From: Glycomyces sp. L485
GTDB lineage: Bacteria > Actinomycetota > Actinomycetes > Mycobacteriales > Micromonosporaceae
Assembly: GCF_022548875.1 (NCBI RefSeq)
Contig: NZ_JAKZEW010000003.1
Coordinates: 141,112 to 205,111, forward strand
Reading direction: 5' to 3'
Length of the DNA: 64,000 bases
Below, in pieces: positions 49,405 through 64,000 of the stretch. The notes below the pieces were generated by a model that saw only the letters and a program-made list of their open reading frames with translations, was not told the DNA's origin and ran no database searches. The position numbers and the translations under genes are program-made. Position 1 is the first letter of the stretch, and each line of letters starts with the position of its first letter.

Positions 49405-49422
49405 CCGGGTCAGTCGGGTGGT

Positions 49423-49887
49423 TCACGGATCTCCGGCCGGTCGGCCACCGAGTTCGCTCGAATCTTGTCGGCGCGCCAGGATCAACGCCGCGAGCCGCTC
49501 GACGACCTCTTCGGGGTGCTCGTGCTCCCATACCCGGAATGCGATCCAGCCGGCCGCGGCGAGTGCCTCATCGGTCTCGCGGTCGCGTTCACCGTTCCGT
49601 CGGACCTTCTCGGCCCAATATTCGGCGTTGGTCTTCGCCACGGTGTGGTGTTCAGGGCAACCGTGCCAGAAGCACCCGTCGAGGAAGACGGCGACCTTGG
49701 CTCTGGTGAACACCATGTCGGCCGTCCGCCGAAGCTTGGGCAAAGGCCGCATCGCGACGCGGTAGCGCAGACCCTTGGCATGGGCGGCTCGACGCAGCCG
49801 CAGCTCGGGTTTGGTATCCCGGCTCTTGTTCGACTGCATGCTTCGCCTGACACCCGGACTCGAAGCCGTCGTCGGTCGCTCTGGCAT
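49423..49887 (-). CDS. vsr: Vsr very-short-patch repair endonuclease
   Basis: A 154-residue Vsr family nuclease that nicks beside T:G mismatches formed when 5-methylcytosine deaminates, protecting the methylated site from mutation. Family blocks are MQSNKSRDTKPELRLRR (17-33), FLDGCFWHGCPEH (68-80) with the catalytic and zinc residues, NAEYWAEKVRRN, and WIAFRVWEHEH. It sits between the C5-methyltransferase (29 nt) and the NaeI-like enzyme (18 nt), the usual setting for Vsr. Confidence 0.95.
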   Translation of the reverse strand: MPERPTTASSPGVRRSMQSNKSRDTKPELRLRRAAHAKGLRYRVAMRPLPKLRRTADMVFTRAKVAVFLDGCFWHGCPEHHTVAKTNAEYWAEKVRRNGERDRETDEALAAAGWIAFRVWEHEHPEEVVERLAALILARRQDSSELGGRPAGDP

Positions 49888-49916
49888 GGGGTTTCCTCAA
49901 AGCCCTAACGGACGGT

Positions 49917-50996
49917 TCAGTCCTTCGTTGTCTCGTTTGCGAAGGCCACGGCATGGACGTGCTCGGCGATCGCCTTGCCCAACAACGGAGGCACCGCGTT
50001 CCCGATCTGCCGTGCGACCTCGATCTTGGTCCCCTCGAACACGAATTCGTCGGGGAACGATTGAAGGCGGGCGGCCTCCCGGTGCGTGATGGGGCGGTGG
50101 GCCTCAGGATGGAGATACCGCCCTTTTTCAGGCTTGTAGAACTCGGTCCGGATGGTCACCGACGGACGATCCCACCACAGGCGGCCCATCACGTCCGTTG
50201 TACCGGTCGGTTTATTCCTCCAGCAATTCGGCAGCAGGTCGGGACGGTTCCGAGCCAGATCGAACCGATTGCCGCCCTCGGGGATGGCCTTGTACCGCTC
50301 CAACGACATCGGGCGGGGATTGCGCTTGATGTGCAGGTCCTGACGTTCGCCGTCCCAGATCACATCATCGGCCTCGGGTTGAGGCGGCAGGTCGGCGATG
50401 ACGTCCCGAACCGTCGCGTACGGCGTGCCGTCAGGGGAATCCGGACCGTGCGTGATCGGCGGCGGCCACGGAACGGACTCCACGTCGCGAACCGCGATGA
50501 AGATCCCGCGACGTCGGCTCTGTGGAACTCCGTAGTCGGCGGCGTGCAGCGCCCCGTAGGCGAAGCCGTAATCGCGGAGGACCTTGTCCGTTTCCATCAG
50601 CTCCAACAGTTTCGCGAACTGCGCCGAACGTTGGAACTCGGGAACGTTCTCGATTACGAACGCCTTCGGGCGGACCTCGCGAACGGCTGTCAGGTAATGG
50701 CGCCACAGCTCGTTCAGCTGTGCTCGGGACACGTCGTCCCGGTCGCGCCCGAGGGGAGAGAACCCCTGACAGGGTGGTCCACCGACGATCACATCGGCTT
50801 CAGGGTACTGGGTCACCAGTTCGATGGTCCCGGCGTTGACCTCGCAACCGAAGTTCCGTTTGAAGGTGCGTGCCGCGGCTTGATCGTTCTCGACGGCGAA
50901 TATCGACTCATAGCCGACCCCTGCGAGATCGAAGCCGAGGCTCAGGCCTCCGGCGCCCGCGAACAGATCAATTGTCCGTATCGACTCAACACTCAC
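49917..50996 (-). CDS. DNA (cytosine-5) methyltransferase of the NaeI-like system
   Basis: A 359-residue C5-methyltransferase with all major motifs: I IDLFAGAGGLSLGF (9-22), IV GGPPCQGFS with catalytic Cys76, VI VIENVPEF, VIII QSRRRGIFIAV, IX RLQSFPDEFVF and X RQIGNAVPPLL. Expected to protect the site cut by the NaeI-like enzyme (probably GCCGGC). The GTG start at 50996 overlaps the TGA of a 29-codon leader ORF (GTGA), so its translation is likely coupled to the leader. First large gene of the restriction-modification operon. Confidence 0.93.
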   Translation of the reverse strand: MSVESIRTIDLFAGAGGLSLGFDLAGVGYESIFAVENDQAAARTFKRNFGCEVNAGTIELVTQYPEADVIVGGPPCQGFSPLGRDRDDVSRAQLNELWRHYLTAVREVRPKAFVIENVPEFQRSAQFAKLLELMETDKVLRDYGFAYGALHAADYGVPQSRRRGIFIAVRDVESVPWPPPITHGPDSPDGTPYATVRDVIADLPPQPEADDVIWDGERQDLHIKRNPRPMSLERYKAIPEGGNRFDLARNRPDLLPNCWRNKPTGTTDVMGRLWWDRPSVTIRTEFYKPEKGRYLHPEAHRPITHREAARLQSFPDEFVFEGTKIEVARQIGNAVPPLLGKAIAEHVHAVAFANETTKD

Positions 50997-51082
50997 AGTG
51001 ACCGCCCCCGTCGCGATTGCCCGTCGGTGGCGATCATACGGATCGGCGCCGACAACTCGGCCTGGAGCAGTCTCGTGATCAT
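50993..51082 (-). CDS. leaderless 29-codon leader ORF coupled to the cytosine methyltransferase
   Basis: A short frame starting MITRLLQAEL and ending RRGRSL. Its ATG (51082) is 7 nt after a -10 box TAGGAT (51095-51090), so it would be translated from the 5' end of the mRNA. Its TGA overlaps the GTG of the methyltransferase (50996-50993). The methyltransferase has no clear ribosome site of its own, so the leader probably delivers ribosomes to it. Peptide function is not implied. Confidence 0.5.
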   Translation of the reverse strand: MITRLLQAELSAPIRMIATDGQSRRGRSL

Positions 51083-51099
51083 GGCCGTCATCCTACATC

Positions 51100-51114
51100 A
51101 GGTGTAATACACCT
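51100..51114. promoter_or_regulatory. perfect palindrome upstream of the restriction-modification operon
   Basis: AGGTGTA-A-TACACCT, a 7-1-7 palindrome just upstream of the predicted -10 box (51090-51095), in the -35/spacer region. It is a candidate operator for the divergent ribbon-helix-helix protein or for autoregulation by the methyltransferase. Confidence 0.55.
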
Positions 51115-51216
51115 TTTATGCACGTGCCCGTTGATCGATGTGTGCCACACGACGTACGCGCGTTGTTAGTCATCGTCGTACGAATTCTCGAACCGGCGTG
51201 GCAGTACTCTATGGGC

Positions 51217-51426
51217 ATGCCGAATCAGCCCAAGACCCCTGCGCGGACGTGCCGGATCTCGGACGATGAATGGAGGCGTCTGGGTGAGTGCGCCGAGACG
51301 CTTGGACGATCGCGCGGCGAGATCGTTCGCGACTTGGTTCGCTGGTATCTGAGCGGCGGGGACATCGCGCCACCGGTGCGCCCGGCTCGAATGAATGGAC
51401 CGCCCTCCAAAGCGGGAACAGGTTGA
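51217..51426 (+). CDS. ribbon-helix-helix-like small DNA-binding protein
   Basis: A 69-residue protein with RTCRISDDEWRRLGECAETLGRSRGEIVRDLVRWYL, the strand-helix-helix pattern of CopG/Arc-type repressors. TACTCT (51205-51210) ends 6 nt before ATG 51217, supporting a leaderless start there rather than at 51118 or 51211. It is divergent from the methyltransferase operon with a perfect palindrome between, so it may control the restriction-modification genes. It could instead be an orphan antitoxin-like protein. Confidence 0.65.
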   Translation: MPNQPKTPARTCRISDDEWRRLGECAETLGRSRGEIVRDLVRWYLSGGDIAPPVRPARMNGPPSKAGTG

Positions 51427-51621
51427 AAGTGGATGCCGGAGACTTCGTTCCGGCGTATCTCCGACGGCAGCACTGTACGGGAGACAGGGACATTCGTCAT
51501 CACCGAGTTGCAGCGGCGGTGAGCGTTCGCCTCCTCGTCGGGAGGACGGTCCTTCGCCCGGCCCCGATACCGTGATCGAACGTGCCGAGTTCCCGACGCT
51601 CCTTCATTGATGCGAGCATGG

Positions 51622-52254
51622 TCAGGCGCGGAGCCGGTTGAGCTTTGCAAGCAGGGCCTCGCAGTCAGCGACACGCCGCTGGTTGTATCCGGGATCTTGA
51701 GGGTCGCCGGGGGCGTCGCCCGCCTTGTGGTCGTGGATATCGAGAGTGACCATCTGCCGCAGCAGATCCACTTCGTAATCGGTGATCACGAGGGTGAGCA
51801 GCGGAGCCTCCGCCGTCGTGGGCCGCGCTGCTTCGGCGTCCTCCCGAACGACGGCACCATCGCGAACGAAGACCTTGTACTCCCCGTCCGGCCTCTGAAC
51901 GTAGAGGGTCTGTTCGAAGCGACGAGCGGTGCCGTCGGGAGCGGTCCCGAAGTCGGTCACTATATTTCGCAGCTCGGCCTCGATCTCCGTGTCACGGTGC
52001 TCCTCCGCCAACGGGTCGGCCTGTACGGCGATGCCTCGATGGCAAGGTCTGCCATTCGCGTCGAGATCCGGAATCATCGCGATGCCGATCATTCCGTTCT
52101 CGCCGACCTTCACGAAGTACCCGTCACCTATCCGCCCGTCGTCCGCCCAGGTGACCTTCCGGTATTCTCCGTCCGCGATCTTGGCCTCGACCTCCGCTTC
52201 GGTGATGGCCGGCTCGACGTCGATCGCTTCGTATACATAGATGTCTTCGCTCAT
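51622..52254 (-). CDS. hypothetical acidic protein
   Basis: A 210-residue acidic soluble protein with no membrane segment or recognised motif. The N-terminal half is beta-rich (GYFVKVGENGMIGIAMIPDL), and the C-terminal half is helical and ends LLAKLNRLRA. Not recognised. It lies inside the restriction-modification island between the two copies of the duplicated small gene, and is probably transcribed alone. The 195 bp between it and the ribbon-helix-helix gene hold nothing I recognise. Confidence 0.65.
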   Translation of the reverse strand: MSEDIYVYEAIDVEPAITEAEVEAKIADGEYRKVTWADDGRIGDGYFVKVGENGMIGIAMIPDLDANGRPCHRGIAVQADPLAEEHRDTEIEAELRNIVTDFGTAPDGTARRFEQTLYVQRPDGEYKVFVRDGAVVREDAEAARPTTAEAPLLTLVITDYEVDLLRQMVTLDIHDHKAGDAPGDPQDPGYNQRRVADCEALLAKLNRLRA

Positions 52255-52452
52255 GATTCGTCCTCAAGATGATGTTCAGGTGCTTCGAAGTCTATTGGTT
52301 CAGTAGTTCACGGGCAGTTCTGTGCATCTACAGCGGATCGGGAATGCGGCGGGGGACACAGCCTGGAGGTCATGCGAGGCCACGGCCTCCGGCCATGGGG
52401 CATTTTGCCTGTTCGCCGGGAGCCTGACCGCTGCGTTTCACCGATGAGAGAC

Positions 52453-52480
52453 GGTGTCCCGAGCTTGGGCTCGGGACACC
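52453..52480 (-). terminator. terminator after the small TAG-interrupted gene
   Basis: A perfect 12-bp stem GGTGTCCCGAGC (52453-52464) and complement (52469-52480), loop TTGG, 9 nt beyond the final stop. Confidence 0.75.
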
Positions 52481-52488
52481 GGTGGAGA

Positions 52489-52875
52489 CTACGTCGAGAG
52501 CTTGCCGAAGACCTCGGTGCAGATCGCGCGGGCCTCCTCATCGGTGAGCCCTTTGAGATGCGCGGTCATCTCCTCGCGTTCACCGCTGTACGGGTCGATG
52601 CACGTCTCCGATGAGTACCAGGTTCGGGCGTCGATGCAGTCGGGCGGCCCCTAGACGGAGGCCTCGATGGCGGCGAAGTAGCAGCTGCCGAGACTACGGT
52701 TGCCGGACAGGAATGCGGCGGCGGCCGCGATGGGGTCCTTTACGTCGTCCTCGGCGATGTCGATGAAGGCGACGTGCTCTGCCTCTTCGGTTTTCAGTTC
52801 GGGTTCGTCGGCGTCGTCCTCCCAGGGGAGATAGGTCCGTCGCCAGACGGTGATCGTGAGCTACTCAGCGTTCAT
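52489..52875 (-). pseudogene. small gene with two in-frame TAG codons
   Basis: TAGGAG 6 nt before ATG 52875 is an excellent ribosome site, yet the frame reads MNAE then TAG (52863-52861). It then stays open for 69 codons (starting LTITVWRRTYLPWEDD, ending FAAIEASV), meets TAG (52653-52651), and continues 53 codons (GPPDCIDARTWYSS, GEREEMTAHLKGLTDEEARA) to a final TAG at 52491-52489. All three parts share one frame, and neither later part has an ATG/GTG/TTG near its beginning. Most simply a gene inactivated by two nonsense changes; readthrough is the alternative. It follows directly on the upstream gene's stop. Confidence 0.6.
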
Positions 52876-52884
52876 GCCGGTCTC

Positions 52885-53658
52885 CTAGACGGTGAAGACG
52901 ACACGGCCGGGGCACCAGCCGATCGGGCAGTCGATGGTGTTGTCGCGATGGCCGGTGGCGTCCTCGTAGTGCCATTCGAGGTCGTTGCCGACGTCGTCGG
53001 GATCGGGGTTGAACCACCACGATCCGGCGCAGGCGATCCAGGACCGATTGCAGGAAGAGCAGTCGGCGCTGATCTGCCAGGCATCGAATCCTTCGATGTC
53101 GGCCAGGGCTTCGACGGTGATTTCGCCGGGACAGGCCCAGATGCCGTGAAGGTGGGCCCGGGTTCCGGCGGCGGTGATGATCTCGCAGAACAGGTAGCGG
53201 CCCGCCGGGATCGGGTACCGGTCGAGTATGACGGCCCTCGATGCTCCGTCGTCCTCGTCGATGACGGTGGCGGCGGTGAGAGTGCAGGGGACGGAGAGCG
53301 TCAACAGGCTGAGTCTGCGCGAGTCGTCGAGGAAGGAGAGCCCGGTGGTGTCGTCCCAAACCGTCTCGGCACCGGCGTGGAACCCGAGCGCTGTCAGCTC
53401 GCGGGCGAAGGCGTGCAGGCCGGTGCGGTCGAGGACGTGCCTGCTCGGGGGCTGCCGGCCGCCACCGGTGTCGAGGTCGTTTTCGGTGAGGGCCTGCCCC
53501 GGTGGGGTGGCGAACAGGCATGCGGGATGCTGCCAGGCTTCGGCCAAGGACTCGGCGGGAGCGGCGTGCAGGTGGTGGACGGCGTGGTCGAGGGTGGCGG
53601 TCGCGGCGACGGTGAGGCAGTACGCCTCGGCGGTGACGATGGAAGGTTCGCTGGACAT
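52885..53658 (-). CDS. hypothetical protein with C-terminal cysteine motifs
   Basis: A 257-residue soluble protein, not recognised. The C-terminal third has DCSSCNRSW and a further CPIGWCPG, spacing that could bind a metal. Start ATG 53658 with AAAGG upstream. Its TAG overlaps the ribosome site of the next small gene. Part of the leftward array of unknown element genes. Confidence 0.7.
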   Translation of the reverse strand: MSSEPSIVTAEAYCLTVAATATLDHAVHHLHAAPAESLAEAWQHPACLFATPPGQALTENDLDTGGGRQPPSRHVLDRTGLHAFARELTALGFHAGAETVWDDTTGLSFLDDSRRLSLLTLSVPCTLTAATVIDEDDGASRAVILDRYPIPAGRYLFCEIITAAGTRAHLHGIWACPGEITVEALADIEGFDAWQISADCSSCNRSWIACAGSWWFNPDPDDVGNDLEWHYEDATGHRDNTIDCPIGWCPGRVVFTV

Positions 53659-53705
53659 GCTGATAGGCCTTTCAAAAGACGGTGGCGATGGACGTGCGTG
53701 AACGC

Positions 53706-53728
53706 CGCCCCGCGGTCCAGGCGGGGCG
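53706..53728 (-). terminator. hairpin after the gene at 53753-54490
   Basis: An 8-bp stem CGCCCCGC (53706-53713) and complement (53721-53728), 24 nt after the stop. Confidence 0.5.
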
Positions 53729-53752
53729 TCGCGTCAGGAATGGAGGGGCGGG

Positions 53753-54490
53753 TCAGGCGGGCGGTTCGGGCCCGGCGGTCTCACGGGCGTTCCGGTCGGG
53801 GCGCCAGGAGTTGTGGACGATCACCGGCTCTGTCGGCCCCCGGAAGACGAGTTCGGAGACCTGCTCATCGTCCCCGCAGACTTCGACGGAGAGCCCGCCG
53901 TGCTCGTCCGGTTCGGGGTCGGCGGTGACGGTAAAGGGCCACTGCCAAGCCGGGTCGGTGGCCTCGTCACCGACGACCAGATGGCGGTAGACGGTGAGCC
54001 GGTCGGGCCAGTGGCATCCACACGAGCACGGGCAGGGCCGGTCGTCGCAGTCTCGTCCGGGGCACCGGTTATGAGCGGCGACGCAAGGAGATTCGGCACC
54101 GGGACCGGGGAGGCGTTGCTCGGACAAGGCGATGGGGACGGTACCCCGGTCGTCGGTGAGCAGCAGCAGGGCGCGGACGCCTTCGGCGGTGATCTCCCGG
54201 ATGCCGGTGAGGGTGAACGGGACGGGCTTGGTGCGGTAGGGCTTGGCGCGACTCAGCCACAGGGTCGGCTCAGCTGCGCCGGTGGCGGCGATCAGGCCGG
54301 AGCCCAGGTAGTTGAGCGCGAGCATGCGGCGGGATGCGGCGGCGCTGGGGCGCACGGTGGTGCTGTGCCATCGGATTTGGGCGGCGGCGCGGCTGACCGT
54401 CCGGTATAGCGCCGGGTCGCGGTCCCAGACGGTGTCGGTGGCGAGCCAGTTGAAACCGGCCGGTTCGGTGGCGATGATGTCGTGGCGCAT
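53753..54490 (-). CDS. hypothetical protein with a cysteine-rich segment
   Basis: A 245-residue protein, not recognised. The central CPGRDCDDRPCPCSCGCHW (about 160-180) is strikingly cysteine-rich and resembles a metal-binding loop. The N-terminal part reads like a small alpha/beta domain and the C-terminus is acidic. Start ATG 54490 with GAAAGGA upstream; the frame continues far upstream but antisense-like through the neighbouring gene. Confidence 0.7.
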   Translation of the reverse strand: MRHDIIATEPAGFNWLATDTVWDRDPALYRTVSRAAAQIRWHSTTVRPSAAASRRMLALNYLGSGLIAATGAAEPTLWLSRAKPYRTKPVPFTLTGIREITAEGVRALLLLTDDRGTVPIALSEQRLPGPGAESPCVAAHNRCPGRDCDDRPCPCSCGCHWPDRLTVYRHLVVGDEATDPAWQWPFTVTADPEPDEHGGLSVEVCGDDEQVSELVFRGPTEPVIVHNSWRPDRNARETAGPEPPA

Positions 54491-54519
54491 GGGGGCGGGT
54501 CCTTTCTCAGGTAGCGGAA

Positions 54520-54550
54520 ACGCCCGCCGAGCGGTCGGCTCGGCGGGCGT
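54520..54550 (-). terminator. hairpin after the gene at 54565-55239
   Basis: A perfect 13-bp stem (54520-54532 with 54538-54550), loop GGTCG, 15 nt after the stop. Confidence 0.7.
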
Positions 54551-54564
54551 GCGCGGGGTGGCAG

Positions 54565-55239
54565 TTATGTCTTGGTGGTGGTGTCGTTCGCGGAATCGGC
54601 TTCCTCGGAGCGTGGGCCGGGTGGTGGGGCGAGCCGGTAGAGGTGGGCGTCGTAGCCGACGGCGCGGAGGCGTTCGAGGGCCTGGTAGTCGTCGAGGATG
54701 CCGCGATGCAGGCGCGTCATACGCTTGCGGCGCTCGGCTTGCCAGCGGCCGAGTCCTCGACTGGTGGCGTTGATGCAGTGGACGAGGTATTCGGGGTCGC
54801 GTCGGACCCAGTGGAGGGCGACGAAACGCAGGAGCGTGGTGGCGCTCTCCCTGGTCCGGTCCGGCAGGTTCCAGCTGAGGAATCCGCCGCACCGGTCCGC
54901 GTCGGCCAGCAGCAGCGGGTGGAAGTACGTGCTCGTCTGGTGACGGGCGATCTCGACGCCGTTGACGGTCAAGGGGTCGTCCAAGTCCTTGCGGTCGACG
55001 AAGTTGTAGTGCCGCCGGTGCGGGTCGCCGTGGCCGAGGAGCACGTGGACGTCGCAGTCTTCGAGGACCGGCGGGTGGTCGAACGCGGGTTCGGCCTCGG
55101 CCCAAACGGTGACCGTGCCGCTGATGCGCGGCCCGTCGAGCCGGTAGCAGGTGGCCGGGAGCGTCCAGTCGTCGTGGAAGTCGGCGCGGGTGCGGCCCAG
55201 TTGCGGGGCCGACCGGCTGGTGATGGTGATGCGTCCCAA
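54565..55239 (-). CDS. hypothetical protein
   Basis: A 224-residue protein with no recognised family. It is mostly beta in the N-terminal 90 residues (SGTVTVWAEAEPAFDHPPV) and helical and basic afterwards (RWQAERRKRMTRLHRGILDDYQALERLRAVG). TTG 55239 was chosen because GGAGG (55249-55245) lies 5 nt before it; TTG 55251 would overlap that site. Flanked by perfect hairpins on both sides, so likely a single-gene unit. Confidence 0.65.
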   Translation of the reverse strand: MGRITITSRSAPQLGRTRADFHDDWTLPATCYRLDGPRISGTVTVWAEAEPAFDHPPVLEDCDVHVLLGHGDPHRRHYNFVDRKDLDDPLTVNGVEIARHQTSTYFHPLLLADADRCGGFLSWNLPDRTRESATTLLRFVALHWVRRDPEYLVHCINATSRGLGRWQAERRKRMTRLHRGILDDYQALERLRAVGYDAHLYRLAPPPGPRSEEADSANDTTTKT

Positions 55240-55260
55240 CGATGCCTCCAAACAGGGGAA

Positions 55261-55289
55261 GGCGGGGCCGCGACATACGCGGCCCCGCC
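55261..55289 (-). terminator. hairpin after the ArdC-like gene
   Basis: A perfect 12-bp stem GGCGGGGCCGCG (55261-55272) and complement (55278-55289), loop ACATA, directly after the stop at 55294. Confidence 0.75.
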
Positions 55290-55293
55290 GGGT

Positions 55294-56028
55294 TCAGTCG
55301 AATTCGAGGACGGTGCCCTCGTCGATCCCGCTCCGGTCCCTGGCGGGTCGGGCTTGGGTGCGGTCGGCCTTCACTGAGGTCCGGGCCTCGGCGAGGCGCT
55401 GCGCTAGGGCGCTGAGCGCCGCCGGGGAGCGCGGGTCGTCGGCAGCGACGGTGACGGCGCCCGCTTCGGTGTCGAGCTCGGCGCTCACCGTCCCGTCGCT
55501 GGTCGCGTTGTCGACGACCGACAGACCGAGCTTGCCGGCCTCGCGGTCGAGCCGTTCGCGCCAGATCGCGGACGGGTCCGCCTCGGCATCGGTCGCGGCG
55601 TCGGGATCGGGAACCAGGTCGGCCTGTTCCTCGGTCTGGCTCAGCTCGAACACGGCCTTCGTCCGAAACAGGGTCGAACCCTCGTCGCCGTCGGCGTCCG
55701 CGTCGGCCTTGTGCGCCTTCGTCTGCTGGATCGGGTAGACGATCCGCAGGACCGCCCTGGTGCCCTTGCGGATGGTCCTGCCGCGTTCCTTCCAGCCGCG
55801 GCCGGTGTCGATGTCAGTCAGCTCGATCCCGGCCTCTTCGGCCTGGTGGGCGAGCATCATCAGGTTGCGGGGGCTGTAGGCGGCCAGTTTCGGCGACCGG
55901 AGCGCGAGCGCCGTCGCCCGTTCCCCGGCGTCCGGTGCCGCCAGGGCGGCGTCAGCGGCTTCGGCGAGTGCCTGGTCGCGGGCCCTGAACTCGGCCTTCT
56001 CTTCGTCGGTGTACTGCTTGCGTCCCAT
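55294..56028 (-). CDS. ArdC-like N-terminal domain protein (possible anti-restriction/ssDNA-binding)
   Basis: A 244-residue protein. The segment YSPRNLMMLAHQAEEAGIEL, then DIDTGRGWKERGRTIRKGTRA and FRTKAVFELSQTE (about 50-140), matches the single-strand-DNA-binding N-terminal domain of ArdC-type anti-restriction proteins of plasmids and conjugative elements. The HExxH metallopeptidase half of ArdC is not present; instead an acidic linker leads to a C-terminal domain with repeated Ala/Asp. AGGAGGA precedes the ATG. It may protect incoming single-stranded element DNA. Confidence 0.75.
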   Translation of the reverse strand: MGRKQYTDEEKAEFRARDQALAEAADAALAAPDAGERATALALRSPKLAAYSPRNLMMLAHQAEEAGIELTDIDTGRGWKERGRTIRKGTRAVLRIVYPIQQTKAHKADADADGDEGSTLFRTKAVFELSQTEEQADLVPDPDAATDAEADPSAIWRERLDREAGKLGLSVVDNATSDGTVSAELDTEAGAVTVAADDPRSPAALSALAQRLAEARTSVKADRTQARPARDRSGIDEGTVLEFD

Positions 56029-56051
56029 CGTGTTCCTCCTTTTCGGGACGG

Positions 56052-56086
56052 CGCAGGGCCGATAGCGGATCGCTATCGGCCCTGCG
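56052..56086 (-). terminator. hairpin after the winged-helix protein gene
   Basis: The longest perfect stem in the window: 16 bp (56052-56067 with 56071-56086) and a 3-nt loop, 18 nt past the stop at 56105. Confidence 0.8.
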
Positions 56087-56104
56087 TGTGCGGGTGGTGT
56101 CGGT

Positions 56105-57067
56105 TCAGGCCAGGCGGTAGGAGCGCTGGCCGGTTTCGGCGGTGGCGTCGGCGAGCTTGTCCGCGATGACGAGCTCTTTGAGGTAGTTGTTGACGGCGTT
56201 GGGGTCGGCCTCGCGGTGGTGCGCGTCAGCGGCCCGGACCGCGTCGGCCACCCCGGCGGGGGTGAACGGCTGCTCGATCGCGCCTTCGTCCAGGACCGCG
56301 TCGATCTGCTTTCGCAGTTCGCCCCTGGTGCGGGCGGGCTTGGTGTCGTTCCGGGTGCGGTCGCCCCGGCTGCGGTTGCCCTTCGTGCCGCCGTTCGCCC
56401 AGGGCATGCGCTTGACGATGCGGACCTCGATCTCCTCGGGCGCGTCGGCGGTCTGGAGCCGCTGCGCGACGACGGTCGCCGCGATCCCCTCGATGGTCAC
56501 GGTCCACTCGCCGCCGTCGACGTCGTTCGGGTCGGACTTGGTGACCAAGCCATGCTCGCCGAGCGCCCACAGGGTGCGCAGCAGCCGGGTCCGCTCGGCT
56601 GTGGTCGCCTTCCCGCAGTTCCGGGCGAACCACTCGATGTCGAACGGCTCGCCGACGCTTGCAAACTGGTCGAGCATCGTCGCGGTGAAGACCATCTCCG
56701 CGTCGACCTGGACCGGGGCGGGCGCGGTCGTCTCCCCCTCGTCGTCTTCCCCGTTCTCCTCAGTCGGGGACTCGCTCTCCTGGGTGTCGGGGACCGATTC
56801 GGCGGCCTGCGACTCGTCGGGGACCTCGGGAGCCGGCGCCTCGGCGACCGGTTCGGCGGCCTCCGGCTCGGCGGGCGAGGTGAGGGACCACTTCTGCGAA
56901 CGGCCGGAGCCAGCGGCCTCGACCTGCCCCGCGGACTGGAGCTCTTCCAAGGCGGCCTTGGCGTCGCTGGTCGCCAGGCCGGTGGTGGCGGTGAGGTTGC
57001 GGATGGACAGGGGCTCTGCGGCCTCGGTGAGGCAGGCCAGGACCTTGTCGCGGTTGTTGTCAGCCAT
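56105..57067 (-). CDS. winged-helix DNA-binding protein with acidic linker
   Basis: A 320-residue protein. The N-terminal winged helix-turn-helix (about 1-65; EPLSIRNLTATTGLATSDAKAALEEL) is of MarR/replication-initiator type. It is followed by a 60-residue Glu/Pro/Ala-rich acidic linker, a second domain (about 125-215), a basic stretch (GGTKGNRSRGDRTRNDTK) and a C-terminal helical domain with another winged-helix-like segment. Probably binds DNA at more than one place. Its ATG overlaps the stop of the preceding small gene. Confidence 0.75.
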   Translation of the reverse strand: MADNNRDKVLACLTEAAEPLSIRNLTATTGLATSDAKAALEELQSAGQVEAAGSGRSQKWSLTSPAEPEAAEPVAEAPAPEVPDESQAAESVPDTQESESPTEENGEDDEGETTAPAPVQVDAEMVFTATMLDQFASVGEPFDIEWFARNCGKATTAERTRLLRTLWALGEHGLVTKSDPNDVDGGEWTVTIEGIAATVVAQRLQTADAPEEIEVRIVKRMPWANGGTKGNRSRGDRTRNDTKPARTRGELRKQIDAVLDEGAIEQPFTPAGVADAVRAADAHHREADPNAVNNYLKELVIADKLADATAETGQRSYRLA

Positions 57068-57266
57068 CGGGCTGTCCTCTCTTCTTTCGTGATCGGTTGG
57101 TGCGGTCGGTTGGCGGGAATCCGCCGCGGGCCAGCCACTGGGCCAGCCCGGCTCGGATCTCGGCGAGTTCTTGGCGGAGCCCGGCGCGCTGCTCGGACGT
57201 CAACGTCCGATCGCGCGGCTGTACTTGGAGGTCGCGGATGCGTTCGCGTGCGGCGTCGGGATCGAT
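57060..57266 (-). CDS. small basic protein with a probable ATC start codon
   Basis: A 68-residue frame reading IDPDAARERIRDLQVQPRD onward, ending RKKRGQPDG. It has an ideal ribosome site (GGAAGGAGGG, minus strand 57288-57279) but no ATG, GTG or TTG at the right distance. ATC at 57266, about 10 nt from the site, is the only sensible first codon; a TTG lies about 20 codons in. Its stop overlaps the ATG of the winged-helix gene (ATGGCTGA), so it is coupled to it. ATC starts are rare, so a changed start codon that lowers expression is an alternative. Confidence 0.45.
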   Translation of the reverse strand: MDPDAARERIRDLQVQPRDRTLTSEQRAGLRQELAEIRAGLAQWLARGGFPPTDRTNRSRKKRGQPDG

Positions 57267-57339
57267 AAGACGGTCCCTCCTTCCCGAATAGGTCGGATTG
57301 AGGCGGCCGTTGGACGGCCCGCCGATGGAGGCATCGGGG

Positions 57340-58461
57340 CTACTGGAGCGGCGCGGTCGCGACGACCGTGCGCGCACCGGGCGCGGTGAGCAGGAGCCGG
57401 TTGCCGGTGGTGAGGGCGAGGGTGACTTCCCCGTCGGGAAGGGTCGCCAGGGCCTTCTTGAACAGTCGCCGGTCGACCGTGCGGCGCAGGCCCCAGAACT
57501 CGGCCACCTCGGACAACTCCAAGCTGTCGCCCTTGGCCGCGCGGGCGCGGGAAGTGAGCGACTTCTTGGACTGCGTGGCACTGGCCTGGACCCGCTCGTC
57601 GAAGTACCGGCTGATCACTGACACGTCCTCGACGGCGGTGGCGAGGATCTTGATGTGGCTGGTGACCTGGCCGTGGCGCAGTTCCAGCCACCGGCCCGAA
57701 CCGCAGGCGACCTGGGCAGCGCTCCACTCTCCGGTCATGTCGGCGAAGGGCTTCACCAGTGCCTTGACGGACTCGGCGGGAATGACGACATCGATCCCGT
57801 TCCGGTCGCCGATGTCGGTAGTGGGCTCGATGGTTTGGACCGTCGCGGCGTAGGTCGCGGTAGCCCACGCCTGGACGCCCGAAGCGTCGATGCGGACCCG
57901 GACCGCCGCCCGGTCGCCGCGAGCGGGTCCGGCTTCGGCGATCTCGGCCGAGCGGGCGGCGGCGGCGAGCGCCGCGCCATCGAGGACGCCGCCGGTGATG
58001 CGTTCGGCGTCCTCGCTCGGCTGCGGCGGGGTCGGGCACCGGTCGAGCGGTACGGCGGCCAGGACCACCGTGCAACCGGGGGCCATCACGGTGATGGCCT
58101 TTCCGGCTGCGGTGAATTCGACGCTCTCTCCGCCGACGAGGTCGAGCGCGGCGGCCAGCCGGGCGGCATCGACGGCGGCGGTGCCGCTGCGGTGGAGCGG
58201 TCCATGCTTGGCCTCGAAGGAGACGGCCAGGGCATGGCTGTAGTCGAATCCGGTGAGCGTCAACTGCTCCTCGTCGGCGTCGAGCCGGACCGCGCGGAGT
58301 TCGCGGCTCGGGTGCTTCGCCGGGATCGGCACACGCGCGAAACCGAGGGCTCGGCGGAACCATTCGGCGCGGACCTGGACGCGCAGGGCCGGATCGGGGT
58401 CGAGTTCGGGTCGTGGCTGGCTGCGTGCGAGTGAGCTCAGGTCGTGGTTGCTGGTGTCCAT
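57340..58461 (-). CDS. element-encoded DnaN-like sliding clamp
   Basis: A 373-residue protein, the normal size of a bacterial beta clamp. Three repeated domains can be traced: FRRALGFARVPIPAKHPS...RELRAVRLDADEEQLTLTGFDYSHA; then ITGGVLDGAALAAAARSAEIAE...VRVRIDASGVQAWATATYAATV; then KKALATLPDGEVTLALTTGNRLLLTAPG. DnaN clamps ring DNA and tether polymerases. Chromosomal dnaN would be elsewhere, so this is an accessory clamp, perhaps used in replication of the element. AGAGGAGAA precedes ATG 58461. No polymerase gene is adjacent. Confidence 0.7.
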   Translation of the reverse strand: MDTSNHDLSSLARSQPRPELDPDPALRVQVRAEWFRRALGFARVPIPAKHPSRELRAVRLDADEEQLTLTGFDYSHALAVSFEAKHGPLHRSGTAAVDAARLAAALDLVGGESVEFTAAGKAITVMAPGCTVVLAAVPLDRCPTPPQPSEDAERITGGVLDGAALAAAARSAEIAEAGPARGDRAAVRVRIDASGVQAWATATYAATVQTIEPTTDIGDRNGIDVVIPAESVKALVKPFADMTGEWSAAQVACGSGRWLELRHGQVTSHIKILATAVEDVSVISRYFDERVQASATQSKKSLTSRARAAKGDSLELSEVAEFWGLRRTVDRRLFKKALATLPDGEVTLALTTGNRLLLTAPGARTVVATAPLQ

Positions 58462-58556
58462 GTTGTTCTCCTCTTTCTGGTGCGGTGGTGGACATGGCGA
58501 GCCGGCCCCGACAGGACGTCGAGACCGGAGATGGGGATGCCGTGTAGCGGCTGGGT

Positions 58557-59027
58557 TCAGCCCTCGGCCGGTCGTTTCGGTCCGGCGGCGCGGATGCGTT
58601 CGGCGACCCGGTCGCTGAACAGTCGCCTGCCGTCGTGGACGCGCAGCCGCTCGCCGCGCTCGGAGGGGCCGAGTCCGGCGTAGCGGCGCAGCCGGGGCAG
58701 GTCGGTCGCGTCGAAGGCCTCGGTGGTGAGGGTGGCGAACGTCGAGCCGGTGTCGGGGTGCTCGAATTCGACGACGACGGCCCCAGCCGGTTCGAGCGGG
58801 GTGAGTCCGTTGTGGTTCCGGTCGGCTACGGCGCGCCGGAGAATGTGGCGGCCGAGGACGACGCCCCACAGGGGTTTGAGAGCTCCGGGAGCGGCAGCGG
58901 GCAAGCCCGAGGCGTCGGCTTCGGCGTCGTGGGCGATGCGGCGGCAGGTCCAGCAGATCCGGCCGGGCACGATGGTGTCCATGCCGCACAGACGGCACGG
59001 CCGTTCGTGGCTGTTGAGATGGGACAT
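58557..59027 (-). CDS. hypothetical protein with N-terminal zinc ribbon
   Basis: A 156-residue protein. RPCRLCGMDTIVPGRICWTCRR (about 9-30) is a CxxC...CxxC zinc ribbon. The rest is a mixed alpha/beta domain (LKPLWGVVLGRHILRRAV) with a basic tail. Start ATG 59027. Not recognised beyond the zinc ribbon; might bind nucleic acid. Confidence 0.7.
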   Translation of the reverse strand: MSHLNSHERPCRLCGMDTIVPGRICWTCRRIAHDAEADASGLPAAAPGALKPLWGVVLGRHILRRAVADRNHNGLTPLEPAGAVVVEFEHPDTGSTFATLTTEAFDATDLPRLRRYAGLGPSERGERLRVHDGRRLFSDRVAERIRAAGPKRPAEG

Positions 59028-59067
59028 GGCGGTCTTCCTGTTCGAGGCGATTCGGATGGGGAGACGG

Positions 59068-59099
59068 CGATGGCCGCAGCCGGGAGGCTGCGGCCATCG
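59068..59099 (-). terminator. hairpin after the gene at 59114-59506
   Basis: A perfect 14-bp stem (59068-59081 with 59086-59099), 4-nt loop, 14 nt after the stop. Confidence 0.75.
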
Positions 59100-59113
59100 A
59101 GGACGGGACGGGT

Positions 59114-59506
59114 TCAGGCGGGGACCGAGAGCGTGGCGCGGGTGGCGAACAGCTCGGCCCTGAGGGCATCGCGTTCGGCTTCGAGCGCCGCGCAGCGGCG
59201 TCGCAAAGCGGCGATGTCGCTGGCCGGGTCGAGCGGCGCGGCCGTGGCCCGGCACTCGCGGCAGTGGTGCGGCCAGGGGTGCAGGTCAACCGGGGCAACC
59301 ATTTGCCGCTGCGGCCACACCTCGAACTGAGGGCGGTCGAAGGCGACCTCCACCAGATCGACCAGGGTGCTCTCGATCGTCGCCGGGCAGTAGTACGGCG
59401 CGAGCGTGTTGACCGCGGCGGCGCCGGGGGCCGGCAACCACAACCAGGGCCTGGCCGCGACTCGTTGCCCTGGCTCCAGGGACACAGGGGTATGCGGGTG
59501 GTTCAT
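59114..59506 (-). CDS. hypothetical protein with CxxC motif and C-terminal coiled coil
   Basis: A 130-residue protein with HHCRECRAT (a possible metal site, about 88-96) and a C-terminal coiled coil DIAALRRRCAALEAERDALRAEL (about 102-124). Unknown function. ATG 59506 with GAGAGGAATCC upstream; an upstream extension of the frame has no support. It is divergent from the prepilin-peptidase-like gene. Confidence 0.65.
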   Translation of the reverse strand: MNHPHTPVSLEPGQRVAARPWLWLPAPGAAAVNTLAPYYCPATIESTLVDLVEVAFDRPQFEVWPQRQMVAPVDLHPWPHHCRECRATAAPLDPASDIAALRRRCAALEAERDALRAELFATRATLSVPA

Positions 59507-59593
59507 GGATGGATTCCTCTCGTTGATGCGATGGCATGGCGGGATAGGGATTTGGACCCTGCTGCGGGCGGTGAGTCTCGGTAGCCTGGAGCG

Positions 59594-60244
59594 ATGCACC
59601 CCTGGACTGCGGCCCTGCTCGCCCTGGTCGCCGCGCTGCCGTTCATCGCGGCCGCTTGGACGACGGTGCCGAGACGGTTGCCAAGGCCGTCGTTTCGCAC
59701 CCGGAACGGACGGGTGCTGTGGTCGATTGCGGCGGCGCTGTCGGCCGTAGCGCTCACGCTCGCCTTGAGCGGCACGACCTCACTCGGCCTGGTGGAACAA
59801 TCGGCGCTGCTGCTCTTCGCTGCCGCCGCGCCCGGCATCACGTTGTGCGACGCGGTCACCCGCCGCCTGCCGTTCTGGATGACCTACGTGCTCACCGCTG
59901 CGCTCGCCGGAGTCCTCGTCTGGGACTTCCTCGTCGAGGACGGGCGGACACCTCTGGTCGGCGCACTGCTCGGCGCGGCCATCGCGCTGCTGGCCCTCGG
60001 ACCGGTCGCGCTGCTCTCCGGCGGCGGCCTCGCCAAGGGCGATGTCGTCATCGCCGAGGTCTACGCCGCGCCGCTGGGCATGATCGCAATCGCCTCGGTC
60101 GCCTGGTGGCTCGTCCTCGGCTTCGCCCTCGCCCTGCCCGTCGCGCTCCTGCGCTGGCGACAGCACGGACGGTCCCACCGGATGCCGCTGGGACCATTCC
60201 TCCTGGCCGCGTGGGCAGCCGTGGCGCTGGCGGTTACTCGCTGA
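59594..60244 (+). CDS. prepilin peptidase-like A24 membrane protein
   Basis: A 216-residue protein with about seven helices. The two aspartates of the A24 aspartic peptidases are placed as in TadV/CpaA: Asp86 in ITLCDAVTRRLP and Asp150 in LAKGDVV. The family's GxGD is AKGD here. It would process type IV prepilin-like proteins at the membrane. TAGCCT (59582-59587) ends 6 nt before ATG, indicating a leaderless message. It is the only clearly rightward gene in this array and overlaps the convergent DUF4192 gene by 11 nt. No pilin gene is seen. Confidence 0.75.
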   Translation: MHPWTAALLALVAALPFIAAAWTTVPRRLPRPSFRTRNGRVLWSIAAALSAVALTLALSGTTSLGLVEQSALLLFAAAAPGITLCDAVTRRLPFWMTYVLTAALAGVLVWDFLVEDGRTPLVGALLGAAIALLALGPVALLSGGGLAKGDVVIAEVYAAPLGMIAIASVAWWLVLGFALALPVALLRWRQHGRSHRMPLGPFLLAAWAAVALAVTR

Positions 60245-61208
60245 GTCGCCGTTCGCTGCCCGACTCGCCGATGGTGGCGAGCGTGGCGGGCGGCAGACCG
60301 GACTGAAGCGCCGACAGCAGCATCTGGGCCAGCCGGTAGGACGGGTCGGCACGCAAGGCCACTTCGAACGCCTCCAGGGCGAGCACCCCGTTGCCGCAGC
60401 GGTAGGCGGCGAATCCGGCGACCGTGGCAGCGGGGGCGACCAGGTCGTCCTCCAGGTGGCGGGCCACCCAGATCCACAGGTCGAGCCGAGCCCGGTCCGG
60501 GTGGGTCGCGATATCGGACAGCACATGGTCGCGGAGCTCGACGTCGGCGAGCGCCAGTCCCAGACGCGCAATCGCCGCGGGCCAGGGCAGGACGGGGAAC
60601 TCCCACCACTGGTTGAGGTACTCCAGCTCGCGGCGCCGCCAAGCGACCCGGTCCCGCTGTGCTTCGTCCTCGCGAAACTGGTTGACGTCTGCGGCGACCG
60701 CCGTTCGGGAATCGGCGCCCGCCGGGTCAAGCAGCGCGGCGACGGCGGCCCGATCGGGCCGGGCGACACCGCCTGCGGCGATGATCGAGAGCACCGCCTC
60801 GGGCAGTTGCGGGACCGGTCGGCCTTCGGGTGGACAGCACGACTCATCGCAGGTCAGCGCCCAGTAGCGTCCTTGATCGACCCGGAGGATGTCGAGCGCG
60901 GCGATCCCCGCCGCGTCGAGCCTGCGGCCGGTGACCGAGGCGACGGCCAGGGCGATCGGCTCGGGCCCGTAGACGATCGCGACGGCTTGGCCGCAGTTGT
61001 TGCGCGTCAGCTGGGCGACAAGGTCGCGTACTTGATCGGCATCCTCGGTCCACTCGGGCAGGTCGACGCGGAACGTGCATTGGAGGCCGCTCTCGTTGAG
61101 GCCGAGGACAACGAGGCTCGACTCCGGAGCGAAGCCGAGCAGGTGGGGCACGACGGCGACCAGGTCGCCGGGGCCGTTGATCTTGATCGGCGCGGTGTGC
61201 TGTGACAT
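60234..61208 (-). CDS. DUF4192-domain protein
   Basis: A 324-residue soluble protein. The N-terminus reads INGPGDLVAVVPHLLGFAPESSLVVLGL, the hallmark of DUF4192, followed by DVELRDHVLSDIATHPD and a TPR-like C-terminus (CGNGVLALEAFEVALRADPSYRLAQMLL). CDESCCPP (about 120-127) could bind a metal. The family is widespread in actinobacterial plasmids and integrated elements and has no known function. Confidence 0.85.
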   Translation of the reverse strand: MSQHTAPIKINGPGDLVAVVPHLLGFAPESSLVVLGLNESGLQCTFRVDLPEWTEDADQVRDLVAQLTRNNCGQAVAIVYGPEPIALAVASVTGRRLDAAGIAALDILRVDQGRYWALTCDESCCPPEGRPVPQLPEAVLSIIAAGGVARPDRAAVAALLDPAGADSRTAVAADVNQFREDEAQRDRVAWRRRELEYLNQWWEFPVLPWPAAIARLGLALADVELRDHVLSDIATHPDRARLDLWIWVARHLEDDLVAPAATVAGFAAYRCGNGVLALEAFEVALRADPSYRLAQMLLSALQSGLPPATLATIGESGSERRLSE

Positions 61209-61304
61209 GGCTATTCCCTTCTGTGTGAGCGCCCGGTTGGGCTGGGTGTGGCTGATGACTGTTTGCGGTTGGTGTCTACGACTGGAACGAGTCCAGGCGT
61301 TCGA

Positions 61305-61628
61305 TCAGGACCCTGCGACGCGGGTGCGCTTCTTTGCAGCGACGATGACGGCGAGCGGGTCGCGCGGGGCGTCGAGGTCGCATTCGAGGCAGTCGCAGCC
61401 GATGCGGTGGAGGCTGTCCGGGTAGGCCCATTGCGGGGAGTTCCAAGGGCCGGGGACGGGGAGGTTCACCAGGACGGCGTGCGGGTTGGGGCCCGGGGTG
61501 AAGCCGGCGACGACGGCTTCGACGAACCTCGGAGAGATGAAGTCGGTGAAGCGGCCCTTGCCGGTCGGGATGGTGATGGCCGGGCGAAGGCGGACCGTCT
61601 GGCCGATGGCGAGGTGGGCGATGTCCAT
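61305..61628 (-). CDS. hypothetical small protein
   Basis: A 107-residue protein. The N-terminal half is beta-rich (GQTVRLRPAITIPTGKGRFTDFI), then comes CDCLECD (about 80-86), a possible metal-binding knot, and a basic end. Start ATG 61628 with GGAGTC upstream. It is the first gene of the leftward array, about 100 nt upstream of the DUF4192 gene. No known family. Confidence 0.6.
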   Translation of the reverse strand: MDIAHLAIGQTVRLRPAITIPTGKGRFTDFISPRFVEAVVAGFTPGPNPHAVLVNLPVPGPWNSPQWAYPDSLHRIGCDCLECDLDAPRDPLAVIVAAKKRTRVAGS

Positions 61629-62059
61629 GAAGAGACTCCAATCGATTCGCGGGCATGGCGATGACCCCGAGCGGTCGGCTCAGGGTGTGCGTGGTGGATG
61701 CGGCCCGTGCGGGCTGCGTGATTGGCCGCGCGTGGGCGGTCGGCTCACAGAGGCGCTGCGTCTGGTGGCTGTCGTGTGGGCCCGACCGGTGTCCCGGTGG
61801 GGCGATCCACATCCGGTTCAGTCACCGGTAGACGGAGCGGGCTCCGAAGCGGGGATTACGTCAAACGTGGTGTGATGCTCCGACCGTAGCCATTGAGCAG
61901 GAGAAATGCACGGTCACAAGCGATCACAGCCGTTCACAAGCGGTCACAAGCCCGAATGTCTCGGCAATGGAGGGACCTGAGGCCCCAGAATGTCAGCGGA
62001 ACCAATGCCCAAATATGGGGAGCGGGAAGGCAGAGGGGTCCGGGTTTGCAAGTAACGAC
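61629..62059. other. 431-bp region with hairpin and phased repeats
   Basis: It contains an imperfect 9-bp hairpin (61664-61672 with 61678-61686, one mismatch) with loop GGTCG, whose core resembles the hairpin at 54520-54550, and the phased repeats at 61911-61950. The rest is lower in GC and holds no convincing gene. Confidence 0.5.
61911..61950. repeat. helically phased CGGTCACAAG repeats, array 2
   Basis: Four adjoining 10-bp units: CGGTCACAAG, CGATCACAGC, CGTTCACAAG, CGGTCACAAG. The minus-strand core TGTGA(A/C) is the same as in array 1 (47973-48030). Confidence 0.75.
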
Positions 62060-62161
62060 ATGAGGTCGAAGGATTCTTCGTCGCTCAGCTCGGATGGCTC
62101 GAAGAACGGCGCTGCCAAGAAGGCTGAGAGCAAGCCCAAGTCGGAGACCAAGGCCGCATAA
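62060..62161 (+). CDS. small Ser/Lys-rich protein
   Basis: A 33-residue frame reading MRSKDSSSLSSDGSKN and ending KPKSETKAA; an ATG at 61967 would lengthen it by 31 residues of unrelated composition. It is followed 2 nt later by a 9-bp hairpin, which supports a transcript ending there. No ribosome site is obvious. Function unknown and gene status uncertain. Confidence 0.35.
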   Translation: MRSKDSSSLSSDGSKNGAAKKAESKPKSETKAA

Positions 62162-62163
62162 GC

Positions 62164-62185
62164 CGAGGGCCGGGTACGGCCCTCG
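62164..62185 (+). terminator. hairpin after the small Ser/Lys-rich ORF
   Basis: CGAGGGCCG (62164-62172), loop GGTA, CGGCCCTCG (62177-62185). Confidence 0.6.
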
Positions 62186-62260
62186 ACCGCTGGGGTTCGC
62201 TCGGGAAATGACCGCTTGCCGTCCTCCAGGCCGCCGCTCACCGTGTGGAATCCTCAACGG

Positions 62261-62973
62261 ATGAACTGGATGGAGTTCGTCGCCGCTCTGACGGAAGTCC
62301 TCGTCTGGCCGCTCGCTGTCGTGGTGCTCGTGCTGGTCTTCCGCAAGCCCCTCTCGAAGCTGATCGCGCTCCCGCTGGAACGGCTCTCGTTCCCAGGCGG
62401 CGAACTCGTGTGGCGTGGAATGATCGCAGACGCCTCCGCGCTGTCGCAAGAATCTGAGCAGGAAACGCGAGATGTTCAGGAAGTCCTTGAGGGAGACCAG
62501 ATCGCCCCTCCCGAAGAAACGGTCTCGTGGGAGCTTGAGAAATTTGGTTTCGATCACGCGCTGTTTCAAACGGTGAACGATGGGCCTCCGGTCGTCGCTC
62601 GGGTTGCGGGGATGAACGGGCTTCGCCAGTTCATGAACGACGGCTCTATAAGCTCACCGGGAACGTGGGCGGGATCGACCTTCGCGAGATTGCTCGCACA
62701 GCACAATCGGCGGGGATCATCGAGGTCAACCTCTTCGAGTCGTTGTTGAGTATCGCCGACTTGAGCGACCTGTTGACGCACGGTGCGATCCGCGAGGACT
62801 CCTCCAAGGTGATTGACTTGCTCAAGCTCATCCGCAACGCGCATCGTCAGTTCACGGTGCAGGCGCTCGGGTTCACGGTTATGGGTCCAATCCCTGAACG
62901 GGCAGAACGACGCGCGAACGACTGGAGGCCGCTGAACAGGCAGGCCAACTCTGAAGCCAAGAACTCTGCGTAG
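62261..62973 (+). pseudogene. membrane-anchored hypothetical protein split by a frameshift
   Basis: An N-terminal membrane helix (LTEVLVWPLAVVVLVLVF) and an acidic stalk lead to VAGMNGLRQFMN in one frame (up to about 62640). The natural continuation, RLYKLTGNVGGIDLREIARTA to the end at 62973, is in the next frame. Inserting one base at 62640 (GA to GAG, giving MNERLYKL) restores a roughly 238-residue protein. It is either a recent pseudogene, a sequencing error or a programmed shift; the site has no slippery run. Family unknown. Confidence 0.6.
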
Positions 62974-63189
62974 CTGGTCAGAGGCTGTGTAGCCGGACCC
63001 CTAGACGCGAAGTGTCGCACCGCCGAGTGCAGCAACTTGCCCTCCGAGGGCGAGAGCGATTCGGTGCCCTGCTGTTCTGGGGATATGATTTCGGGTTCGC
63101 TTCGAGGCCGGAATAGGGGGTGCTGCCTGGGGTTTCGGGCTGTGTTCGGGGTGGTGTTGTCATGGGACCGGGCGTGGGGCAGGCCGTAA

Positions 63190-63211
63190 GGCCAGGTTGT
63201 TAGACCTGGCC
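63190..63211 (-). terminator. hairpin after the replication-relaxation gene
   Basis: GGCCAGGT (63190-63197) and complement (63204-63211), 6-nt loop, 26 nt after the stop, inside repeated GGCCGTAAG sequence. Confidence 0.55.
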
Positions 63212-63237
63212 GTAAGGGTCGGTCGTGGCAGGTTCGC

Positions 63238-64000
63238 CTACGGCAGTTCGGACCGGTGGGCGATCTCGGCGAGGGTGAGTCGCTTGCCGTAGCCGATGAG
63301 CCGCCAGTGCGATCCGGTCGGACGCGCTCCGGCTTCGGTGGTGAGGGCTGTGGCGACGGGGAACTCCAGCGCTTCGCGGGCGGCTCCGGCGTGGAAGTGG
63401 TCTTCGCGGGCCCGGCTGGGCAGGGTGAATAGGACGGTGCGGGACCGGCCGCCGTCGAGCGGCCGGTAGCGGACGTAGCGGCGCAGCTTCGCGATGAGCT
63501 GGGTGTGGGTCTCGGTGCCGGTGTCGTGTTCGTGCCAGGCCCGCAGCTCGGGTCCGCCGCGCCACTTGAGGACGTATCCGGCATCGGGGCGCAGCTGCCC
63601 CGAGCATGCCTCGGCGGCTTCGGTCTCAGCAAGCCATTGGGCGATGGTGAACACGCCGCCGGAGTGCCGGGCGTCGGCGTGGAGGCAGGCGGCGAAGGCG
63701 TTCACTGCTTCGAGGTGAGCCCGGTGGCGGGAGACGGCGAGCCGCTGCATCTGCCACGAGCACCACTGCCGGGTCGGGGGCTTCTCGGCATTGCGCATCG
63801 CCCAGATCGCGTGGCCCCATTCGCCGAGCGTGTAGCGGTAGGCCGCACGGTGCCCGGGCCGGAACCGGGCGAGCACGCCGAGCTCGGTGAGGGTGAGGAT
63901 GCGTTGGCGCGCCGTCCACTCCGAGGTGAACCAGATCGCGGTGATCATCGGCGCGGTGAGGATCTTGTGAACGGCGAGCGCATCGACGATCGCGATGTCC
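63238..64000 (-). CDS. replication-relaxation family protein, 5' end cut by the window
   Basis: At least 253 residues visible; the frame is open to the window end, reading VDALAVHKILTAPMITAIWF before the first internal Met, so the true start lies beyond 64,000. The N-terminal winged helix (TARQRILTLTELGVLARFRPG) and the following beta-rich part (GYVLKWRGGPELRAWHEHD) match the replication-relaxation family of actinobacterial plasmids and integrative elements, related to relaxase/replication functions. GTG/ATG starts cannot be judged. Confidence 0.8.
   Translation of the reverse strand, partial: DIAIVDALAVHKILTAPMITAIWFTSEWTARQRILTLTELGVLARFRPGHRAAYRYTLGEWGHAIWAMRNAEKPPTRQWCSWQMQRLAVSRHRAHLEAVNAFAACLHADARHSGGVFTIAQWLAETEAAEACSGQLRPDAGYVLKWRGGPELRAWHEHDTGTETHTQLIAKLRRYVRYRPLDGGRSRTVLFTLPSRAREDHFHAGAAREALEFPVATALTTEAGARPTGSHWRLIGYGKRLTLAEIAHRSELP

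Follow-up and report, generated by a model that had tools for sequence, protein, structure and literature searches.

U-poor, GC-rich hairpins behind the genes of a Glycomyces conjugative element as putative leaky gene-end signals

Introduction

Structured transcript ends that lack a run of uracils (U), also described as I-shaped terminators, are the closest described counterparts of the hairpins reported here. In Streptomyces clavuligerus, according to the accessible part of the report, U-lacking structured 3' ends ('HS-U-lack') show intermediate read-through inside gene clusters, and its authors suggested that non-terminal 3' ends control abundance among the genes within a cluster (PMC8269248). 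For Streptomyces, the available text of a second study gives terminators with 3–4 U in the first 10 nucleotides (nt) and the longest and most stable hairpins among the species compared (PMC12207403). The present work concerns a row of leftward genes, hereafter the array, with GC-rich hairpins at positions 53706 to 59099 of a 64,000-nt stretch of Glycomyces DNA. This whole stretch, called the window below, covers contig positions 141112–205111 in the 4.4-megabase genome of this soil actinobacterium. The array lies in a conjugative element inserted in the chromosome and starting at about 44.3 kilobases (kb) in the window; the genes and hairpins of the array are all on the minus strand.

The array hairpins share with the HS-U-lack ends a stable GC-rich stem behind the gene and the lack of a U-run, and both also occur within gene clusters, in S. 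clavuligerus with partial read-through, as far as the accessible text of that report goes (PMC8269248). They differ in that the array hairpins are known from sequence alone and, between co-directional genes, exceed the density on the host chromosome. Three features of U-lacking terminators were found in the array: stems near the stop codon beyond chance, no U-run, and the same signal at the gene ends of the host. We consider that these hairpins are probably U-poor, GC-rich gene-end elements of the type serving as intrinsic terminators in actinobacteria, and that they probably act as leaky terminators while shielding the preceding message against decay from its 3' end. A search of the open literature with limited terms returned no publication title describing the array or its hairpins.

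Hairpins at the ends of the array genes

An earlier note on this DNA had claimed that five leftward genes are each followed, shortly after the stop codon, by a stem of 8–16 base pairs (bp). This was borne out, with a spacing of 4–24 nt and all five stems perfect. Significance was assessed with 300 dinucleotide-preserving shuffles of each gap, seven gaps being tested. The shortest hairpin, of 8 bp at 53706–53728, stands 24 nt past the stop of the gene at 53753–54490 and was equalled in length in 4 of 300 shuffles. None of the 300 shuffles matched the 13-bp hairpin at 54520–54550 (14 nt past the stop of gene 54565–55239), the 12-bp hairpin at 55261–55289 (4 nt past that of 55294–56028), the 16-bp hairpin at 56052–56086 (18 nt past that of the winged-helix gene, 56105–57067) or the 14-bp hairpin at 59068–59099 (14 nt past that of 59114–59506). 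A sixth stem, recognised by eye and absent from the earlier note, was missed by the perfect-stem scan; it has 11 bp with two G-U pairs and lies at 58502–58528, 28 nt past the stop of gene 58557–59027. An additional stem of 13 bp is found further left, at 52452–52481.

The 10 nt behind the stems of genes 53753, 54565, 55294, 56105 and 59114 hold 2, 3, 5, 1 and 2 T, respectively, with no U-run, and a classical terminator scan of 45000–64000 listed none of the five hairpins, its eight finds against 8.5 expected being at chance level. From the five stems to the next start codon there are 21–47 nt, with a Shine-Dalgarno-like stretch between. No TANNNT, a -10-like motif, occurs in the 120 nt upstream of seven array genes, which is weak evidence, about three being expected by chance at this G+C. 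In Rfam, 44000–64000 matched a tRNA alone (up to E = 1), and none of eight related loci gave a match at the gathering score.

The same signal in the host genome and in related elements

Gaps of 40–400 nt in 20 chromosomal stretches and in the first 44 kb of the window served as controls, scored for perfect stems of at least 9 bp. Such stems were present in 14 of 25 gaps between convergent genes, 14 of 100 between co-directional genes and 4 of 41 between divergent genes, compared with about 1% in shuffles, and in convergent and co-directional gaps their median position was 14–16 nt past the stop. Genes of this genome thus often end in a hairpin of this kind, and U-poor GC hairpins are its usual gene-end signal.

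By the same measure, 4 of 8 co-directional gaps of the window's element carry a stem. The comparison was extended to 63 element regions, of which 60 were fetched beside the gene of the VirB4-like ATPase and three were others; they were taken from the top of the VirB4 list rather than at random, several end early at contig ends, and the 13–20-kb stretches may extend beyond the element. Eight further element regions from the genus, one of them from the same genome, had stems in 18 of 48 co-directional gaps (Fisher test against the chromosome, p=0.002), and 54 regions from other genera had them in 68 of 218 (p=0.0009), these p-values treating gaps as independent. With the limit lowered to at least 8 bp and gaps of 50–100 nt, stems were present in 5 of 7 gaps compared with 6 of 31 on the chromosome (p=0.014), where the seven include the stretch right of the window. 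Element regions therefore carry hairpins between co-directional genes more often than the chromosome of the window's genome does.

Conservation in Glycomyces buryatensis

The closest relative found belongs to the same genus and is taken to be Glycomyces buryatensis (NZ_STGY01000073.1), where the array's sliding-clamp-like protein has a 74% match. Eight genes, from 59114 to 52885, keep their order and direction there with protein identities of 51–85%, and the adjoining conjugation genes are 54–90% identical, so that the gene-order comparison suggested by the earlier note finds array and conjugation genes collinear in a close relative. No DUF4192 match was found in the G. buryatensis element.

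Judged by eye, a stem is kept at all six hairpin positions, several with altered sequence. The one after 59114 is near-identical; after 58557 three positions are changed and G-U pairs keep the stem closed. The stem behind the winged-helix gene has two pairs with changes on both sides and has lost one pair from both arms. Behind the ArdC-N gene (55294) and the 53753 gene the stems have 10 and 9 bp and unrelated sequence, and behind 54565 there are 8 bp with a larger loop.

The clamp-like and winged-helix genes are separated by 272 nt (57068–57339) in the window, against 80 nt in G. buryatensis; to the eye, the extra DNA resembles a short open reading frame (ORF) without a clear start codon.

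The winged-helix gene and the fold behind it

The gene at 56105–57067 encodes 320 residues with three predicted winged-helix domains, suggested by Pfam matches that are weak and below cut-off and by a structure model with a mean predicted local distance difference test (pLDDT) score of 81. Foldseek returned no full-length relative of the model; the single match at E≤0.001 was a chain of RNA polymerase III aligned at 17.9 Å, and the rest were short winged-helix matches. In profile searches this is the most widely shared array gene, with matches in 39 of the 63 element regions and none at E<1e-3 in the other 24; four of the 39 did not pass 1e-15, which left 35 for the comparisons below.

In 32 of these 35 elements the 75 nt behind the gene fold with z<-2, z-scores being taken from single-base shuffles; 12 of the 35 loci share one conserved leader and hence are not independent. 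The same test was passed by 95 of 252 other co-directional ends in elements with gaps of 40–400 nt and by 4 of 111 with gaps below 20 nt, and on the chromosome by 22 of 46 convergent ends, 23 of 89 co-directional ends and 2 of 63 short gaps. Perfect stems of at least 8 bp stand behind the winged-helix gene in 14 of 35 elements, and a more distant element (G012:C15) has an 18-bp perfect stem there. The genes that follow differ between elements; therefore the hairpin belongs with the preceding gene or, in the twelve loci with the leader, may belong with the following one.

Termination, protection and the alternatives

If the hairpins are leaky terminators and 3' protectors, a single transcript would run leftward along the gene row, a fraction of RNA polymerases would halt at every hairpin or the transcript would be trimmed back to it, the upstream message would be shielded against 3' decay, and each gene would thereby obtain its own expression level without its own promoter. 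The short distance from stem to next start, together with the lack of TANNNT, points to such a single read-through transcript, partly stopped or trimmed at the hairpins. The sequences show the hairpins, their position close behind stop codons, their excess over shuffles, the shared signal at convergent gene ends of the genome and the stems kept with altered sequence in G. buryatensis; we infer that transcripts end at the hairpins, that these ends are leaky and that gene levels are affected. The attenuation between genes that the earlier note had proposed is plausible, in that the hairpins resemble the genome's own gene-end signals, lie near the next start and have no TANNNT beside them.

Several observations weigh against this proposal. 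The gap after the clamp-like gene (57340), alone among the seven tested, lacks a strong stem, its best one having 7 bp and being equalled in 72 of 300 shuffles. The 1–5 U per 10 nt after the stems are at or below the 3–4 given for Streptomyces in the available text of that study (PMC12207403), and some G. buryatensis stems are shorter or have larger loops. In the regions from other genera only 1 of 11 convergent gaps has a stem of at least 9 bp, and 14 of 100 chromosomal co-directional gaps carry one too, so the signal is enriched in elements and not exclusive to them. The chromosomal control comes from one genome, its stretches may hold other mobile DNA, and genes were called with the authors' own simple caller.

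The alternative with most in its favour, which we still hold to be unlikely, is that the hairpins do not stop transcription and act instead as processing elements, as exonuclease barriers that determine the lifetime of each part of one transcript, or as leader structures of the following gene. The few U after the stems fit this, as does their position near the preceding stop and also 21–47 nt before a start, and in 12 of 35 related elements the fold is a conserved leader immediately upstream of a GGDEF gene. However, stems are commonest at convergent ends (14 of 25), where no downstream leader exists, and are rare in divergent gaps (4 of 41); they also stay near the preceding stop. It is improbable, too, that the hairpins are complete terminators in a string of single-gene transcription units with a promoter for each gene: strong stems do follow most genes, but the 21–47 nt between stem and start contain a Shine-Dalgarno-like stretch, and the 120 nt upstream of the seven genes have no TANNNT, which represents one promoter type. 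Sites acting at the DNA level, either recombination sites by which single genes could move as cassettes or sites bound by a single protein, would agree with the varying gene content between backbone genes of distant elements and are nevertheless very improbable, given that the stems are unlike each other (best arm match 4–8 of 12), that no RYYYAAC/GTTRRRY pair 40–150 nt apart was found, that the integrase found at the end of the element is of the serine recombinase type, and that gene order in G. buryatensis is identical.

Exchange of single genes as cassettes, as the earlier note had envisaged, is accordingly not borne out, the array being collinear in a close relative and having neither a common hairpin sequence nor an attC-like core-site pair. 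Integron gene cassettes resemble the array in that a sequence able to fold stands behind each single gene; the array differs in its lack of attC core-site pairs, its perfect and mutually unrelated stems and its collinear gene order, and an integron cassette array was rejected because attC core sites were not found. The neighbours of the conserved winged-helix gene do differ in elements that are less closely related, so the region is variable, and nothing seen links exchange to the hairpins.

Returning to the leaky gene-end signals, the best explanation for this conspicuous alternation of genes and hairpins in a high-GC mobile element is that ordinary gene ends of actinobacteria are employed here with unusual frequency, which cautions against reading such arrays as cassette systems. 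Should internal hairpins prove to be in excess of those on host chromosomes in more genomes, this would point to graded termination as the means by which a common element family tunes its genes. A bolder and rather doubtful extension is that a widespread family of actinobacterial conjugative elements sets its accessory gene levels through a ladder of leaky hairpins and not through promoters. The winged-helix hairpin would then be a family-wide control point, its place kept and its sequence turning over, perhaps tied to the control of that protein itself.

Other genes of the array

The leftmost of the five genes first noted (53753–54490) encodes 245 residues with a cysteine-rich stretch and no family match. 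Single-sequence searches of 354 genomes from the same bacterial family gave relatives in 3, its own included and the third distant at 32%. Gene 54565–55239 (224 residues, TTG start after GGAGG) has no family match either and relatives in 2 of 354 genomes including its own. The 244-residue product of 55294–56028 has the N-terminal domain of ArdC antirestriction proteins (Pfam ArdcN, 31 bits against a cut-off of 22.6). Full ArdC carries a C-terminal metalloprotease motif, HExxH; the array protein differs in being short and in having no HExxH, as judged by eye.

The sliding-clamp-like protein of 373 residues (57340–58461) matches the PHROG processivity factor at E 1.2e-23 and is below the DnaN cut-offs (TIGR00663, 24 bits against 137.65; Pfam, 20.2 against 24.4), and its structure model is unusable (pLDDT 34). 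A close relative occurs in 2 of 61 genomes including its own, the remaining matches being at 22–28% and resembling chromosomal clamps. No match was found in phages, plasmids, viral contigs or solved-structure sequences, and a scan of genome contigs with two peptide patterns returned G. buryatensis only. Gene 58557–59027 (156 residues) has N-terminal CxxC pairs, zinc-ribbon-like by eye, and only a weak match to a PHROG of unknown function. The 130-residue product of 59114–59506 has no family match; in profile searches it forms one family with 61305–61628 that is present in 8 of 63 element regions, and a single-sequence search placed the gene in 3 of 354 genomes, the third distant. To the right lies DUF4192 (60234–61208, 324 residues; Pfam 212 bits, cut-off 27.8).

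Among the gene names proposed in the earlier note, DUF4192 is clear, the ArdC N-terminal domain is above cut-off and the winged helix is carried by its model; the case for the clamp is weak, and the zinc-ribbon and cysteine-rich proteins are without any family match. By profile search, DUF4192 was found in 10 and ArdC-N in 5 of the 63 regions, and the clamp-like, 58557, 54565, 53753 and 52885 genes in the window and G. buryatensis only. As the set thus recurs in one other genome, which has no DUF4192 match, the suggested general replication-maintenance or anti-defence module is unsupported. The backbone genes (winged-helix, DUF4192) are more widespread than the rest; on this shared backbone the set forms an accessory group specific to its lineage.

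The conjugative element

From its left end the element contains a serine integrase at tRNA-Val, a NaeI-type endonuclease with a cytosine methylase, the array, DUF4192 and Replic_Relax, followed by a coupling protein, an M23 peptidase, a VirB4-like ATPase and a T2SSE ATPase. The large serine recombinase (44317–45993, minus strand) has Resolvase and Recombinase domains and matches PHROG integrase at 1.5e-75. Its 3' end is overlapped by a tRNA-Val gene (anticodon cac) on the opposite strand at 44286–44358, which is likely an attachment site. The restriction endonuclease and C5 cytosine methylase lie at 48424–49386 and 49917–50732; NaeI had no match in the other element regions compared. The replication-relaxation protein Replic_Relax is encoded at 63238–63948 (minus strand), and conjugation genes continue right of the window.

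In this setting the array is best explained as belonging to the accessory region of a conjugative element that resides in the chromosome and carries type IV secretion genes. Actinobacterial integrative and conjugative elements with type IV secretion are similar in their integrase, VirB4-like ATPase, coupling protein and chromosomal location (PMC3218068, in its available part). The Glycomyces element differs in having a serine integrase at a tRNA gene, an insertion that the accessible text of the same source calls rare (PMC3218068). Among the proteins scanned, which cover part of the genes right of the window, Replic_Relax is present and no recognised relaxase. VirB4 relatives (E≤1e-40) occur in 177 of the 354 genomes, and the same genome has a second VirB4-bearing element (L099, G000:C18:43891-63890) whose VirB4 is 57% identical.

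A conserved leader behind the winged-helix gene

The leader shared by twelve winged-helix loci (regions L124, L126, L129, L130, L134, L135, L137, L140, L142, L143, L148 and L155) is about 80 nt long and consists of a 12–14-bp GC helix followed by GCTCCTT, a loop and AAGGAGC. Pairing of the last two motifs would sequester the Shine-Dalgarno sequence of a GGDEF-domain protein of 211–225 residues (Pfam 3.4e-32 in the one scanned). The leader had no Rfam match, and its consensus fold showed double-sided changes in 0 of 20 pairs among 12 sequences, because these are too alike. It is a candidate regulatory RNA, and as such would be more surprising than the hairpin array itself. Of 354 genomes, 52 contain the core pattern, and among the matches listed none came from the reversed control. 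Of twelve sites of the pattern that were fetched, ten stand before an ORF encoding SGDEF, one stands before a similar ORF that lacks it, and one has no ATG or GTG start. The leader is also present in regions L116, L154 and L162–L173.

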